Source of the DNA: Acidobacteriota bacterium
Lineage (GTDB): Bacteria > Acidobacteriota > Vicinamibacteria > Vicinamibacterales > CAVVIG01
DNA length: 64,000 nt
Assembly: GCA_003222395.1 (NCBI GenBank)
Contig: QHWB01000041.1
Span: forward strand, 62,001 to 126,000
Reading direction: 5' to 3'
Each line of letters starts with the position of its first letter. Positions within the stretch are counted from its first letter, which is position 1. The position numbers and the translations under genes were made by a program. Below the pieces are notes generated by a model. The model did not search any database. It was given only the letters and a program-made list of their open reading frames with translations, and was not told the DNA's origin. Positions 11,049 to 39,944 of the stretch are shown here, piece by piece.

Positions 11049-14000
11049 TCAGAAATCGATCTGCGCTCCAACCTTCACGAGCCGTCCCTGGAGAATCTGC
11101 GTCGGCGACAGCCAGCTCGTGCCGTACGTCGTATTCAGCGAGAGGATCGCGCTCGAGTTCACGACGTTGAAGATGTCGACCGACGCCAGCACGCGGCCGC
11201 GCGCGGTGTGGAACAGCTTCCCGAACCGCACGTCCATCTGCGTCACCCGATCGCCGTACATCGTGGCCGGCGCGATCAGCTGCGTCGCCGCCGTGCCGAC
11301 GCCCAGCGGCCGGTTCAGGTTCTGCACCTGCGCGCTCGTCACCGTGTAGCGTGCGAGGATCTGCGGGCCGGGGCGGTTCTGCAGCGTCGCGCTGGCCGTC
11401 AGCCCCCACCATGGCAGCGGATAACTCGCCAGACCCTTGACGTCGGCCTGGAACGGCGGTTCGACGCGGCAGTAGAGCGTGCTCGGCGTCGCGGCGGCAC
11501 CGGCGGTCGCCGTACTGGTGAAAGGCAGCAGCGTTCCGGCCGTCGACGCGAGGACGCCGGCCACAGGCGCGTAGCTGACGCTCGCCGCTCCCGCGACGGC
11601 GCAGATGTCGGTTATCTCGTGGCCGATGCTCGTGCCGCCCGACACGAAGCCGCCGCGCGGCAGCCGCGCGTTCGCGTTGAAGTCGTAGCCGGTGTAGACG
11701 TCGCTCACGTCGCCGAAGTTGCTCGCGCGCTGCACCAGATAGAACGGCGAGGTGGTGAACGTCGACGGATTCTGATCCATGAAGCCGCAGATCTGGTTGC
11801 CGCCGCCGTTCGGCAGACGCGGATCGGCCGGCGCCATGACACAGAACGAGCTGTAGCTCGTCGCCGGCGGCTGCGCCGTGTTCTGGCTCGCGAAGAAGTT
11901 GCCGAACGCGTGGCGCGTGAACTGGAAATCGACGGCGAGGCGCGGCAGCAGCTGATGCTGCATGCCCGCCGACACCTCGTGATCGTTCGGACGCACGCCC
12001 CAGCCGTTCGTGATCGACGCGTCGTACTTCGCCGCAATGTTCAGCGAGCCGAGCGGGGCATTCAGTTGTCCGCACTCGCCGTTCAGCGACGGATCGGTGA
12101 GCACGCAGTCGGCCACGAAATTGCCGTTGCGATCGGTCCACTGCCGCGAGGCGGAGTTGATGGACGTGTTGACGCGATTGTTCAGCGTCGCCATGTTCGT
12201 CGACTCGCTCGCGATGTACTTCGCGTAGTTGGCGCGCACGACCGTGCGGCCGTCGCCGAACACGTCGTAGGTCGCGCCGGCGCGCGGCGACAGATCCTTC
12301 CAGTTCGGCACGCCGTCGATCTCGTCGTAGTGGCGCGCGGCCACGAACGGGATCGCGGGCAGGTCCTGAACCGGCACGTACGCGTTGTGATAGTCGAAGC
12401 GGAGGCCGATGTTCAGCGTCAGACGGGTGATCGTCCACCGATCCTGCGCGTACACGCCGAGCGCCGATCTCAGGTGCTCGGTATCGATCAGCGGCCGCGC
12501 GTACTCGGTGATCGTCGTCGGAATGCCGCGCAGGAACGTCCACGCCTGTGCCTGGTTCGTGTCGTACCGGTAGTTGCGCGTGCCCCACATGTCCTGCATG
12601 CCGAACTTGAACGCGTGGCTGCCGGTCACGTAGTTCGCCGCGAATCGCATGTTGTATTGGTGATTGCCGGCGGTGGTGAACACGTTGCCGGCGCCGTAGG
12701 TGATGCCGAGCCCCGACTCGGTCTTGGAGATGACGGCGTCGGCTCCGTAGCCGTTGATGTTGTACGGCTCGGGACCGAAAATCCACGTCTCGTTGTAGAA
12801 GGTGAAGCCGCCTTCGAACAGCAGCTTGTTCGTGTGCGGGTTGGTCCACGTCGCCTGCAGCAGGTACTCCGGTTTGTGCGTGAAGTACACACCCGCTTCG
12901 GGCGAGGTCGTCGCGCTGCACTGGTTGCAGTCGACGAGCCGCTGGTTGACGTGGCTGAAGAACGTCACCTTGTTCCGCTCCGTCGCCTGCCACGTGAGAT
13001 TCAGCGTCTCGCCGCGCGACCACGTGTCGCCGCTGACCGTCTGGTGGCTCAGATCCTGCGAATTGGGCACGAGCGTGGTCGGATGGAACGCGTCGCCGTA
13101 CGAACAGCCGGCGGCCGACGCGCAGTACTGCGGGGCGCCCGGCCGCACGTTCGTGAACATGCCGGCGACGTAGTTCTGCGCGCCGTTGTAGCGGAATCCG
13201 CCGAGGAACCAGAGCTTGTCGCGGACGATCGGGCCGCCGACCACCGGGTTGAAATCCCACAGCTTCTTCACGCTGTTCACAGCCTTCAGTCCGCGGTCGA
13301 TCAGATCCTGGGACAGATTGCCGCTCTGCAGGTTCGAGTCGGTGAAGTTGCCGAAGAGGTAGCCGCGATACGCGTTGCCACCTTCTTTCGGGATGACGTT
13401 GGTGAGGACGCCGCTCGATCGCGCTTCGGCCGACAACCCGCTCGTCGTCACCGTCATCTCCTGCACCGTGCCGGTGTTGACGACGAGCGTCGTGTTGTAG
13501 CCGCCGCCGGTGTTGTTCATGTTGTTGTAGGGCATGCCGTTCATGACGAGCGGCATCTGATCGGAGCGGCTGCCGTGGACGGCAAGCGTCTGGTAGCGAT
13601 CGCCGCCGGTGCCGCCGACGTCCTGCGATCCGAGCGCGATCGTGACGCCCGGCACGAGCACGCTGAGATTCTGAAAGCTGCGACCCGTCGGCAGCGCGTC
13701 GATGACGTCGTGCGTGAGCGACTTTCGCTGCGTGACGCTTTGCGTGTCGATGAGCGGGCTCTCGCCGGTGACGGTGACCGTCTCCTCGACGGCGCCGACG
13801 CGCAGCTCCACGTTGACGGCCGCCGTGAAATCGTTGGTGAGCTCGATCCCGTCACGCTTCACCGTGTTGAATCCCGGCAGCGTGAACGTCACCGTGTATG
13901 TGCCCGGACGCAGGTCGATGATCTTGTACTGTCCGTCGCCGTCGGTGACCGCGACGCGCGTCTTCTCGATGAGCGCGGGGCTCGACGCTTCGACCGTCAC

Positions 14001-14132
14001 GCCCGGCATCACGCCGCCGGTCGTGTCGCGCACGACTCCGGCAATCGCGCTCGTCTGCGCGAACGCCGCCGTCGCCGGCAGCAGCAGCGCGCAGGCGGCG
14101 AAAACCGACGCGAAACCACGTCCTCGTGCCAT
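11049..14132 (-). CDS. TonB-dependent receptor (Oar/carboxypeptidase-regulatory type)
   Basis: 1027 residues with a signal peptide, then a carboxypeptidase-regulatory-like domain (IAGVVRDTTGGVMPGVTVEA, PGTYTVTFTLPGF). A plug region follows (VTVTGESPLIDT, a typical energised-receptor box, and later NVIPKEGGN). The rest is a long aromatic-rich beta barrel ending in VKVGAQIDF, with the terminal Phe needed for outer-membrane insertion. These receptors import large substrates with TonB energy. No SusD partner is adjacent, so this is the Acidobacteria-style lone receptor. It is divergent from the HD-GYP regulator across a 169-base gap that should hold both promoters. Confidence 0.9.
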   Translation of the reverse strand: MARGRGFASVFAACALLLPATAAFAQTSAIAGVVRDTTGGVMPGVTVEASSPALIEKTRVAVTDGDGQYKIIDLRPGTYTVTFTLPGFNTVKRDGIELTNDFTAAVNVELRVGAVEETVTVTGESPLIDTQSVTQRKSLTHDVIDALPTGRSFQNLSVLVPGVTIALGSQDVGGTGGDRYQTLAVHGSRSDQMPLVMNGMPYNNMNNTGGGYNTTLVVNTGTVQEMTVTTSGLSAEARSSGVLTNVIPKEGGNAYRGYLFGNFTDSNLQSGNLSQDLIDRGLKAVNSVKKLWDFNPVVGGPIVRDKLWFLGGFRYNGAQNYVAGMFTNVRPGAPQYCASAAGCSYGDAFHPTTLVPNSQDLSHQTVSGDTWSRGETLNLTWQATERNKVTFFSHVNQRLVDCNQCSATTSPEAGVYFTHKPEYLLQATWTNPHTNKLLFEGGFTFYNETWIFGPEPYNINGYGADAVISKTESGLGITYGAGNVFTTAGNHQYNMRFAANYVTGSHAFKFGMQDMWGTRNYRYDTNQAQAWTFLRGIPTTITEYARPLIDTEHLRSALGVYAQDRWTITRLTLNIGLRFDYHNAYVPVQDLPAIPFVAARHYDEIDGVPNWKDLSPRAGATYDVFGDGRTVVRANYAKYIASESTNMATLNNRVNTSINSASRQWTDRNGNFVADCVLTDPSLNGECGQLNAPLGSLNIAAKYDASITNGWGVRPNDHEVSAGMQHQLLPRLAVDFQFTRHAFGNFFASQNTAQPPATSYSSFCVMAPADPRLPNGGGNQICGFMDQNPSTFTTSPFYLVQRASNFGDVSDVYTGYDFNANARLPRGGFVSGGTSIGHEITDICAVAGAASVSYAPVAGVLASTAGTLLPFTSTATAGAAATPSTLYCRVEPPFQADVKGLASYPLPWWGLTASATLQNRPGPQILARYTVTSAQVQNLNRPLGVGTAATQLIAPATMYGDRVTQMDVRFGKLFHTARGRVLASVDIFNVVNSSAILSLNTTYGTSWLSPTQILQGRLVKVGAQIDF

Positions 14133-14301
14133 GTATCCTCCCGCGGCGCGAGTATACGGATTTTTCAGCGGCGATGCCGCGTTTGTCAGGCCGGTGCCAA
14201 TTCTGATCCCCGCGTCCGACGAGACAGCCGCCGAACCGCTTCATGGGGCGTCATTTACCCGTTCATCGCTGACGGTCTCCGGCTTGCAGTTTCGCGTCCG
14301 C

Positions 14302-15333
14302 ATGGGGACCAGCGGACGCGTCCTCGTGGTCGATGACTACGAGCCGAACCTGTCGGCGATGCGGCGGCTGCTCGAGCGCGCAGGCTACTCCGTCATCACC
14401 GCGATGAACGGACACGAGGCGCTCGAAACGATCAACCGCGAGCGTCCGGATCTCGTGCTGCTCGACGTCGTGATGCCGGAGATCTCCGGCGTCGACGTCT
14501 GCGCGGCGGTGAAAGGGACGGCCGACACGTGCCTCACGCCCGTCGTGCTCGTGAGCGGCGTGCAGGAGCGCGCGACGCGCATCGACGCCATCGGCGCCGG
14601 CGCCGACGATTTCCTCAACAAGCCGATCGACACCGAGGAGCTGTACGCGCGCGTGCGCTCGCTGATTCGCATCAAGCGCCTGACCGACGACCTCGAGTCG
14701 GCCGAATCGCTGTTCCTCACGCTCGGACGCATCATCGAGGCGCGCGATGCCAACACGGAAGGGCACTGCGAGCGGCTGGCGGCCTACGCGACGTCGCTCG
14801 GCGCGAAGCTGAACCTCGATCGCGGCGATCTCGATGCGCTGTACCGCGGCGCGTTCCTGCACGACATCGGCAAGATCGGCATCGCCGATCGCGTGCTGCT
14901 CAAGAAAGGGAAGCTGACGACTGCCGAACGCGCGCTGATGCAGCGGCATCCGGCCGTCGGCGACGATCTGTGCAGCACCGTCCGCTCGCTCGACGTCGTC
15001 CGGCCGATCGTCCGCCATCATCACGAGCGCATCGACGGCCGCGGCTATCCCGATCATCTCAGGGGTGGACAGATTCCGTTGCTCGCGCAGATCGTGAGCG
15101 TCGTCGACGTCTTCGACGCGCTGACGACGGATCGTCCGTATCGCAAAGCGCTGTCGACCGACGTCGCCTATCAGATGATGCGCGACGACGCCGCCAGCGG
15201 CTGGTGCGCGACGGCGCTGGTGGACGCATTCATCGATCTGCACCAGGCGGACAAGAACGTCGGCACCAAACCCGACCGGATGTACTCGAACAGCACCGTA
15301 TCGGGTAACAGCAACAGCGGCGTCCGCCTCTAG
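14302..15333 (+). CDS. Response regulator with HD-GYP domain (c-di-GMP phosphodiesterase)
   Basis: I start at ATG 14302, just before the receiver domain; earlier in-frame sequence is antisense to the receptor gene. 343 residues. The receiver domain has DD at 11-12, phospho-acceptor Asp55 (LLDVVMP) and Lys107 (LNKP). The HD-GYP domain has FLHDIGKIGIAD (HD at 187-188), HHHERIDGRGYP (GYP at 248-250) and DVFDALTTDRPY. All expected metal ligands appear present, so it is probably an active phosphodiesterase lowering c-di-GMP. No cognate histidine kinase is nearby. Confidence 0.9.
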   Translation: MGTSGRVLVVDDYEPNLSAMRRLLERAGYSVITAMNGHEALETINRERPDLVLLDVVMPEISGVDVCAAVKGTADTCLTPVVLVSGVQERATRIDAIGAGADDFLNKPIDTEELYARVRSLIRIKRLTDDLESAESLFLTLGRIIEARDANTEGHCERLAAYATSLGAKLNLDRGDLDALYRGAFLHDIGKIGIADRVLLKKGKLTTAERALMQRHPAVGDDLCSTVRSLDVVRPIVRHHHERIDGRGYPDHLRGGQIPLLAQIVSVVDVFDALTTDRPYRKALSTDVAYQMMRDDAASGWCATALVDAFIDLHQADKNVGTKPDRMYSNSTVSGNSNSGVRL

Positions 15334-15399
15334 CGCGCCTCTAGCGCAGGCCTTCAGGCCCGCCTCGTGATAACGTAGCTTCCAATTCGGAGGTTACGC

Positions 15400-16398
15400 A
15401 TGAATCGGTCGATCGTTTCCACACTCATCGGTTTCTGTCTGCTCGCCGCTGCAGCGCTGGCACAGACACCCGCACCATCAAACCTGCCGTACACGGCTGT
15501 TCACGATCCGCAGTTCATCAGCGCGGCGGAAGCGACCTTCATGCACGACGACGATCGCGTGATTGGTCTGATGGTCGGGAAAACGGCGAAGGCGTATCCG
15601 GCAGGCATTCTCTCGCAGCACGGGCTCGTCGAAGATCAATCGCCCAAAGGACCGATTGCGATCACCTGGTGATCGTATTGCAACACGGCCCTCGTGTTCA
15701 GGGCCGAGGCCAGGGGCAAGGCGCTGATACTCGACAACGCCGGCGTCGTCGGGGGCAATGAAGTATTCAAGGACCGCGAGACGGGCAGCCGATGGCAGCA
15801 ATCGAGCCTCGAAGCGATCTCCGGTCCGATGCAGGGCGAGCATCTGAAGCTGTATCCGTTTCTCCTCACCAGCTGGCAGGAATGGCGCCGGCTGCATCCG
15901 GACACGCGCGTGTTGAAGCCGCTGGCCGGATACGCCGATCGCATCGCGGAGAAGAACGCGATGATCCGGCAGGGTCTGTCGGGCGAAGGCGCCGCGCCGT
16001 CGGACGTGACGTATCGTGACGATCGTCTCAAGCCGAAAACGATGATCCTCGGCGTCGACGTCGACGGCGCGAGCAAGGCGTTTCCGCTCGAGGCGCTGCG
16101 GCGAGAGCGCGTCGTCAACGACAGGCTCGGCGGCAAGCCGATCCTCATCGCTCATCAGCCCGCATCCGACACGACGACGGCGTTCGTGGCGCGGGCGGGC
16201 GGCAGGACGCTGACCTTTGCGGCAGCGAACGAAGGCGCGACCGAGCTGACGGATCGAGAAACGAAGTCGCGCTGGACCGCCTACGGAGAGTGCATCTCCG
16301 GACCGCTGAAGGGATCGGCGCTCGAAGCGATCATCCTCGAACCAGAGTACTGGTTCGCATGGTCGGAGTTTCACCGGGACACGGAAATCTATCCCTGA
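15400..16398 (+). CDS. DUF3179 protein, probable selenoprotein (Sec encoded by TGA 15670-15672)
   Basis: ATG 15400 follows GGAGG at 15390-15394 and starts a signal peptide (LLAAAALAQ). Codon 91 is TGA, and the frame stays open for 241 more codons. The local reading is ITW-U-SYCNTALVF. DUF3179 proteins normally have a C-x-x-C motif here (TWC-x-x-CNTA), so the TGA stands exactly where the first Cys is expected, giving U-x-x-C. A SECIS-like hairpin begins 13 bases after the TGA. The protein holds two DUF3179 halves (about 35-165 and 205-332); the second lacks the motif (HQPASD). A redox role in the periplasm is inferred. I recall that this family is sometimes annotated as a (seleno)protein, but could not check. 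A TGC-to-TGA null mutation is the alternative. The end overlaps the convergent cupin gene by 10 bases. Confidence 0.75.
15673..15706 (+). promoter_or_regulatory. Candidate bacterial SECIS element
   Basis: Immediately after the TGA at 15670-15672 there is a 13-base spacer, then CGGCCCT (15686-15692), loop CGTGTTC (15693-15699) and AGGGCCG (15700-15706). The stem is a perfect 7 base pairs. The loop begins 20 bases after the TGA and has G at its second position. Both features fit the published bacterial SECIS consensus as I know it. The hairpin lies within the coding sequence, as bacterial SECIS elements do. Confidence 0.65.
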
Positions 16399-16835
16399 AC
16401 CGGCGTCGTCAGCGTCGCGCCTTTCTTCGCGAAGATCATCGCGAGCAGCTTTGCGGGCTGCGTCTGGCTCGCGTTCTTCGAGACCTCGTGCGTCGCGCCC
16501 GGCTGCTCGTAGAACATCTGGCCGACGTTGTAGACCTTGTCCTCGCCCTGCCCCGTGATTTTCGCGACGACCGATCCCTCCAGCACGTAGGCGAGGACGA
16601 AGCCCGCGTGCTTATGCGGCGCGCCGACGCGCCCGGGCGGGTAGTCGACGTGGCTGACCGTCACCTCCCAGTCGTCCATCGTCAGATTCGGCAGATCGTG
16701 CTTGAACACCGGCGGGCGCGGAGCCTGCGGTGTCGACGGAGGTGTTTGACTCTGCGCATCGGCGCGCGCGGCCGACGCGAGCAGTTCTGCGAAGACGGCG
16801 AGCGAGCAAACGGCATCTCGGCGATTCATCATCAT
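16389..16835 (-). CDS. Secreted cupin-domain protein
   Basis: 148 residues with a Tat-like or Sec signal (RRDAVCSLAVFAELLASAARA) and a single cupin barrel. PHKHAGF and the later GATHEVSKN supply the usual histidine ligands of cupin motifs 1 and 2. The VLEGSVVAKI strand pattern is typical. The substrate is unknown. It is convergent with the DUF3179 gene and overlaps its last 10 bases. Confidence 0.8.
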   Translation of the reverse strand: MMMNRRDAVCSLAVFAELLASAARADAQSQTPPSTPQAPRPPVFKHDLPNLTMDDWEVTVSHVDYPPGRVGAPHKHAGFVLAYVLEGSVVAKITGQGEDKVYNVGQMFYEQPGATHEVSKNASQTQPAKLLAMIFAKKGATLTTPVQG

Positions 16836-38071: not shown

Positions 38072-38803
38072 GACTACGTGTGCGGCCAGAACCGATGCGT
38101 GGCGCCGACGGTGATGACGCCGTCAGCGTTGCCGGGATCGGTGACGCTGAACGCGGCGTATCCCTCGTAGAGACCTTCCTTCGTTTCGAAGTTCTGGTAC
38201 CCGCGGTTGCCTGCGGCCGCGACGACGACGCCGCCGCTGTTGACGAGGCGTTCGCATTCGTTGCACACGGGCGTGCGGCCGCACGCGTAGTTGCGCACGT
38301 CGTGCGGAATCGACAGGCTCAGGTTCGCGCCATGGATCGTGATGAAGCTGTTGCGCTCGTTGATGTCGAGCTGCTTCAGGGTTTTCTTCGCGCCGCTTCG
38401 AGGATCGTGGCGACGTCCGCGGCGAGCGCGGGATCGTCGAGGTACCGGGCGATCTCCGTGCCGTTGTTGCGATCGTTCCACCAGTAGGTCATCGGGACGA
38501 CGAAGCGGACGACTTCTTCGAATGTCAGACGGGCCGCGACGATCCCTGCAGGTACGCAATGTCCGCGTTGCGGATGTCGGAACAATTCGACAGCGCGCGC
38601 GCGACCGTGCCGGCCGCGTACTCCTTGTACGGCGTAATCAACAGCTCGAGCTTCCTGCCGGGGTTCCTCGCGAACTCCACCCAGACGTCGCCGAGGATCG
38701 GCGAGTCCTGGAGCTGACGCCGATCGTCTTCGGGGCAGGGCAGAATGAATTCGACGACCTTGCGGGGAATCTCGATGCCGCTCTGCGCCTTCGTTTTCGC
38801 CAT
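38072..38803 (-). pseudogene. S8 (subtilisin-like) peptidase remnant with several frameshifts
   Basis: The pieces read in order on the minus strand: MAKTKAQSGIEIPRKVVEFI from 38803, then a frame change near 38565 to RLTFEEVVRFVVPMTYWWND. A second change near 38405 leads to RNSFITIHGANLSLSIPHDV, VVVAAAGNRG and VITVGATHRFWPHT. The AAAGN and ITVGA stretches are subtilase core motifs (oxyanion Asn region). The catalytic Ser (GTSMA) part is missing because the gene is cut at 38072. Whether the MAKTK start belongs to the same gene is uncertain. It lies directly behind an intact patatin. Confidence 0.6.
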
Positions 38804-38807
38804 TCGC

Positions 38808-39944
38808 TCAGACTCCAAGCGCCGGATACGGAAACGCGTCCGCCCTGCGCAGCGCAGGATCGACGTGCGCGCGCAGCGCCGCATCGCATACCGCGTATCC
38901 CCAGTTGATCAACCGTTCCTGCAGCGCGTCGTCCATCCGCTTGAGACGCGTGGGCGTTTCCGCCAGCTCGGTGGTTCGGTCGAACGGGCAGGGCAGCGTG
39001 TCGGGCAGACCGTAATCGCCGACATTCGTCCGGATGCCCCAGTACGCTCCCTTCCGCGCGCCCGATTTGTACGAATCGATCAGCAGCCGTTTGCGCAGCG
39101 ATCGCACCTGGTTGTCGACGATATCGAGAATGCGGTAGGCGTGGCGCGCCCAGTCGGTCTTCGGTTCTTCCTGCGGCGGCATTTTTCCACCGCCGTCGCT
39201 CACGAGCACGGTGTCGTACCGCTTCCAGACCGTCTCGAGTCCGAGGTTGTCGTACACGGCGCCGTCGCTGAGCACGACCTTGCTGGTGAACGGCGCGCGC
39301 TGAAGGTCGTATCCCGATCCCGCGGTGAACTGACTCGGATCGAGGCGCAGCTCGAGCGGCGAGAGGAGCGGCGGAAACGCTGACGAAGCCGCAACGGCCT
39401 GCGCGAGAGGAATCGCCGGCGCGCTCACGAGGCCGACGCGATAGTCCCCCATGAACGGCTTCGAGAAGCGCCACAGCACGCCGGACTGCACGTTCGTCGC
39501 GTTGATGACGAACCGCGGCGCATCAGGCAGGTCCTGCAGCGTCGCGTCGCCGAACAGGTGCTGCTGGTACGCGGCGACGACGCGATCGCTGACGCGGCCT
39601 GGAAGCACGAGGCCCAGGATGATCGCGTCGGCGTCGATCGTCTCGCTCGCCAGCGCTCGCAGCGGTTCGACGACGAGGCGGACGAAATCGGCATCGAGCC
39701 GCGCCGGATCGAAACTGAGCTGCTTCCATTTGAGCGCAAGGAGACCCGCCGTAATCGATCCGCCCGAGACGCTCGAGATTCGACTGACGGATCGGAGCAC
39801 GCGCGCCTGGTAGAGCCGCCACAGAACGCCGACGTGAAAAATCATCGCGCGATAGCCTCCGCCCGAGAGGCACAGGCCGACGCCGCGCTGCGGACCGCGA
39901 CCGGGCTCGTCGGTCGGTATCGGCTGAACGGGATCCTGCGGCAT
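38808..39944 (-). CDS. Patatin-like phospholipase
   Basis: I start at ATG 39944 (MPQDPVQPIP), giving 378 residues; sequence before it is low-complexity. Patatin motifs are complete: the oxyanion loop LSGGGYRAMIFHVGVL, the nucleophile SSVSGGS and the catalytic Asp SDGAVYDN. No signal peptide or membrane segment is seen, so it is likely cytosolic. It ends just before the MAKTK start of a degraded S8 peptidase/MBL stretch, and may have been part of a patatin-peptidase-MBL operon. The substrate is unknown. Confidence 0.85.
   Translation of the reverse strand: MPQDPVQPIPTDEPGRGPQRGVGLCLSGGGYRAMIFHVGVLWRLYQARVLRSVSRISSVSGGSITAGLLALKWKQLSFDPARLDADFVRLVVEPLRALASETIDADAIILGLVLPGRVSDRVVAAYQQHLFGDATLQDLPDAPRFVINATNVQSGVLWRFSKPFMGDYRVGLVSAPAIPLAQAVAASSAFPPLLSPLELRLDPSQFTAGSGYDLQRAPFTSKVVLSDGAVYDNLGLETVWKRYDTVLVSDGGGKMPPQEEPKTDWARHAYRILDIVDNQVRSLRKRLLIDSYKSGARKGAYWGIRTNVGDYGLPDTLPCPFDRTTELAETPTRLKRMDDALQERLINWGYAVCDAALRAHVDPALRRADAFPYPALGV

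Follow-up and report, generated by a model that had tools for sequence, protein, structure and literature searches.

A DUF3179 gene in the genome of a soil acidobacterium very probably encodes a selenoprotein in which a bacterial SECIS (bSECIS) element directs selenocysteine to position 91 (Sec91); the product is probably exported, and its sequence suggests selenol/thiol redox activity. The gene lies in a stretch of 64,000 nucleotides, referred to here as the window. Its in-frame UGA codon is almost certainly read as selenocysteine, judging from the sel genes of the organism, the exchange between Cys and Sec among homologues, a conserved hairpin and selection past the TGA, all of which support the selenoprotein reading of the original prediction. 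The hairpin past the UGA would recruit SelB together with Sec-tRNA-Sec, whereupon the ribosome would insert selenocysteine and continue for a further 241 codons; incorporation is suggested by this genomic signature.

The DUF3179 frame and its predicted U-x-x-C site

The frame opens with an ATG and closes at TGA 16396-16398, a true stop. As described originally, it is otherwise free of lesions: one in-frame TGA follows 90 codons and no other stop interrupts the frame (Table 1). The product belongs to Pfam family DUF3179 (PF11376), with an E-value of 1.1e-65 and a score of 222.4 bits against a curated cut-off of 27, and the match (residues 33-328) spans the TGA site. The protein had no match in NCBIfam, and a search of the gene against Rfam at a permissive threshold gave no family above its gathering score. 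Export is probable, judging by eye from the N-terminus.

Table 1. Features of the DUF3179 gene, in window coordinates
Feature	Position	Strand	Basis and remarks
GGAGG, Shine-Dalgarno-like	15389..15393	+	just 5' of the ATG; by eye
Predicted DUF3179 selenoprotein gene	15400..16398	+	frame translation and Pfam; 332 aa with TGA read through
Probable signal peptide, residues 1 to ~22	15400..15465	+	by eye; residues 1-20 of low pLDDT
Repeat 1, residues 34-176, Rieske-like predicted fold, carries Sec91	15499..15927	+	profile and structure comparison
Putative Sec91 codon UGA (W-U-S-Y-C)	15670..15672	+	translation, homologue alignment
Cys94 codon, second residue of U-x-x-C	15679..15681	+	translation, alignment
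Putative bSECIS hairpin, 7-bp stem, 7-nt loop CGUGUUC	15686..15706	+	folding, conservation, shuffles
Repeat 2, residues 210-332, Rieske-like predicted fold, without Sec	16027..16395	+	profile and structure comparison
Cys298 codon	16291..16293	+	invariant (20/20), in the branch of the window gene only

We compared the gene with loci sampled from relatives, from genomes of the phylum and from named genomes; the named relatives in public records belong to the Acidobacteria/Terriglobia. The TGA had been proposed to occupy the first Cys of the C-x-x-C motif of DUF3179 proteins. Indeed, this column holds Cys or Sec in 61/61 aligned sequences, being invariant once TGA is read as C. The proposed exchange between the two residues was also seen, with TGA in 49 and TGC or TGT in 29 of 78 aligned rows, three of which duplicate named records. 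Close homologues (45-82% identity) all carry TGA, and more distant clades carry either TGA (PLCGTGI, TLCHTGL) or Cys. In one genome, a second, divergent DUF3179 fragment with a TGA (L051, genome G024, contig C429) accompanies a close homologue and a Cys copy; Sec and non-Sec DUF3179 paralogues thus coexist.

The suggestion of a U-x-x-C redox site held in part. A Cys three residues past Sec is present in the window gene (Cys94) and throughout its branch, but it is not obligatory: four Sec members (L072, L082, L088 and L095) have U-x-x-A or U-x-x-V, so Sec is retained where the partner Cys has been lost. Cys298 is invariant in the branch of the window gene and replaced by Ala, Gly, Ser or Glu in nearly all other sequences. 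We infer that the nucleophile in catalysis is probably Sec91, that Cys94 usually serves to resolve it, and that Cys298 may be an additional partner in this branch. Together they would carry out extracytoplasmic selenol/thiol redox chemistry on a scaffold of tandem Rieske-like beta domains.

A different role for the same residues, which would leave selenocysteine in place and concern its chemistry only, is unlikely: Sec91 and Cys94 might bind a metal or act structurally. The resemblance of the predicted fold to Rieske metal-centre domains speaks for such a role. However, a partner Cys that is lost in some Sec members is unsuited to a two-ligand site, and Sec in place of Cys is typical of redox nucleophiles. 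The latter is also stated in a selenoprotein review.

Conservation of the UGA codon and of the downstream hairpin

The hairpin described in the original prediction was confirmed. A perfect stem, formed by CGGCCCT (15686-15692) and AGGGCCG (15700-15706), begins 13 nt past the TGA and encloses the loop CGTGTTC (15693-15699), which has G at its second position and starts 20 nt after the TGA. Published constraints for bSECIS elements comprise a loop of 3-9 nt, a stem of 4-16 bp, a spacing of 16-37 nt, an energy of at most -7.5 kcal/mol and a G within the first two loop positions. With its 7-nt loop, 7 bp, G2, 20-nt spacing and -11.9 kcal/mol, the window hairpin satisfies them all. An equally stable hairpin arose in 97 of 5000 codon-preserving shuffles of the window gene alone (p about 0.02).

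Among relatives, 21 homologues were scored codon by codon. The major synonymous codon reached a fraction of 0.94 within the hairpin versus 0.61 at 110 other scored codons, and the codon windows over the hairpin were the most conserved of the scored stretch. The hairpin codons CTC (Leu), GTG (Val) and AGG (Arg) were each found in 21/21 homologues. By this measure, nucleotide conservation of the hairpin across the 21 homologues is far in excess of what the protein needs. A second clade has a hairpin with a 5-nt loop, in which 7/7 pairs are kept in all five distinct sequences and two pairs have changed on both sides; sliding the partner strand destroyed the pairing in this control of few sequences. 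In a third clade the hairpin reads CACACC-GGUCU-GGUGUG, with a loop that also occurs in the fdhF SECIS of E. coli. The median energy of the best hairpin was -11.0 in TGA members versus 0 in Cys members, the sequences within this comparison being related, which inflates its significance, and TGC/TGT relatives mostly have no hairpin. The separation has exceptions on either side, namely a weaker hairpin (5 bp, -6.2) in L060 and L070 and a hairpin at -9.1 in the Cys member L092.

These data also bear on readings without selenocysteine. Were the UGA a real stop, the locus might encode two proteins or undergo programmed termination with re-initiation at GTG 15694, and table-11 ORFs do exist at 15400-15672 and 15694-16398. 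We consider this very improbable, as the Pfam match and the structure model run unbroken across the site, homologues have Cys where the window gene has TGA, and the GTG sits within the loop of the hairpin. Still less probable is a pseudogene or a sequencing error, with the TGA being a genuine nonsense change or a misread TGC or TGT. Seen in isolation, a lone in-frame stop in an intact frame would look alike. Nevertheless, TGA occupies the Sec codon in 21/21 of the closest acidobacterial homologues, which come from independent assemblies. This recurrence rules out a misread base and refutes the pseudogene or error reading. The conserved hairpin and the substitution pattern past the codon also speak against it: against the closest relatives, dN/dS was about 0.07-0.13 before the TGA and mostly 0.1-0.25 past it, where one value was 0.41 and some pairs were saturated. 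By these estimates, purifying selection is acting on the sequence 3' of the TGA, consistent with a UGA that is decoded as selenocysteine.

Selenocysteine decoding in the genome and in the phylum

The genes that selenocysteine decoding calls for, named in the original prediction as a check, were all found in the genome to which the window belongs (7.74 Mb in 118 contigs, 99% complete). selA was detected at E 1.8e-162, selD at E 1.7e-102, selB at E 3.0e-93 and above its family cut-off, and the tRNA-Sec has the anticodon TCA. A further match to the tRNA-Sec model (L004, 50.4 bits) was rejected, as it turned out to be tRNA-Ser. SelA, SelB, SelD and tRNA-Sec together with other genes that contain in-frame TGA codons indicate that the organism uses selenocysteine, with at least two further candidate selenoproteins. 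One of them is SelD itself (L020, genome G000, contig C26, 9514-10446), probably a selenoprotein, whose gene carries an in-frame TGA at the U of C-A-G-U, followed by a strong hairpin. The other is a formate-dehydrogenase alpha-like gene (L101, genome G000, contig C88, about 38134-38907, minus strand) with an in-frame TGA in R-V-U-H-G-P-T and a hairpin downstream.

That UGA is instead read as Trp or Cys, whether because the genetic code has changed or by natural suppression, has the open frame as its sole support and can be set aside almost entirely, given the sel genes and tRNA-Sec, a hairpin largely confined to TGA members, and the use of TGA as terminator by the window gene and several relatives.

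Association of the DUF3179 copies with decoding genes was assessed in 297 genomes of the phylum. A TGA-containing copy was found in 38/297 genomes, counting copies with an internal stop and with the codon position checked in the fetched loci. selA was present in 36/38 of these genomes versus 191/297 overall (Fisher p 4e-6, uncorrected for relatedness). The two TGA-copy genomes without a selA match, and one such relative, all have tRNA-Sec. Four homologues of one genus (L078, L080, L081 and L083) have Cys within an otherwise TGA-type motif, and this genus is not among the selA-bearing genomes of the phylum sample.

Predicted fold, known relatives and gene neighbourhood

The two halves of the protein are repeats of each other (BLASTP E 4e-12; hhalign E 3e-30). 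With Sec modelled as Cys, AlphaFold2 gave a full model of pLDDT 92.8 and pTM 0.88 that shows no break at the Sec site, and repeat 1 predicted alone reached pLDDT 94.5. In VIA-align comparisons, the matches listed were all Rieske-fold at moderate Z, both for the full model (best Z 10.3, mainly over repeat 2) and for repeat 1 alone (best Z 9.6, 8hn2, 2.9 A over 92). Thioredoxin folds were not among the matches listed for either, and almost all of the secondary structure in the models is beta. Foldseek hits to Rieske structures were weak (E 0.03-0.1). At the profile level, hhalign aligned repeat 2 with the Rieske profile at E 4.5e-5 and a score of 31, versus at most 16.4 in 100 column-shuffled controls; repeat 1 gave no signal above shuffles in comparison with the same profile. 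A sequence search of the PDB returned no solved relative, the best hit being a chance match to haemoglobin at E 0.47. The Rieske cluster ligands C-x-H and C-x-x-H are absent, and the only Cys or Sec residues of the protein are Cys13, Sec91, Cys94 and Cys298. The predicted fold thus resembles two tandem Rieske-like domains without the cluster ligands.

When repeat 2 is aligned by profile, the segment matching U-x-x-C precedes the first cluster box, which suggests that Sec does not occupy the old cluster site. We speculate, as a tentative and on balance doubtful scenario, that DUF3179 selenoproteins might be tandem Rieske folds that have lost the Fe-S cluster and carry instead a selenol/thiol redox site on an adjacent hairpin of repeat 1, with Cys298 of repeat 2 joining in the acidobacterial branch. 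Each repeat of the DUF3179 model matches Rieske structures, but unlike the Rieske [2Fe-2S] domain (PF00355) the protein is tandem and carries Sec-x-x-C instead of C-x-H and C-x-x-H.

DUF3179 (pfam11376, UxxC/T) is already listed as a predicted prokaryotic selenoprotein family (PMC9312934, PMC13188914), a listing credited to the Olavius symbiont study of Zhang and Gladyshev 2007 (PMC9312934). The window gene is therefore a well-supported further member and not a new type. It shares with the listed proteins the Pfam family, the U-x-x-C motif type and bacterial Sec decoding, and differs from the review entries in the W-U-S-Y-C-N motif of the acidobacterial branch, in the branch-specific Cys298 and in having U-x-x-A/V relatives. 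A Haladaptatus plasmid (NZ_CP085302.1) encodes the same domain under the NCBI name 'DUF3179 domain-containing (seleno)protein', which shows that annotators knew of Sec members, although this copy has Cys (TGT) at the Sec column. New here are the acidobacterial branch, the Sec members without the second Cys, the branch-specific Cys298 and the predicted tandem Rieske-like fold; going by the limited literature searched, the latter may be unreported for DUF3179. A selenoprotein known from tabulated prediction thereby becomes a case with strong comparative evidence, Sec-containing DUF3179 proteins appear widespread in a main soil phylum, and a family of unknown function receives a testable structural guess. 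Standard annotation ends such genes at the UGA, so that they are lost.

Comparison of gene neighbourhoods revealed no operon around the DUF3179 gene. A response regulator with an HD_5 (HD-GYP-like) domain (13702-15333, plus strand) lies on the same strand and ends 66 nt before the ATG. Downstream, a ChrR-like cupin gene (16389-16835, minus strand) is convergent with the DUF3179 gene. This cupin alone recurs, being found in the same convergent arrangement in two relatives (L052, 4403-4861, minus strand; L063, 3944-4360, minus strand).
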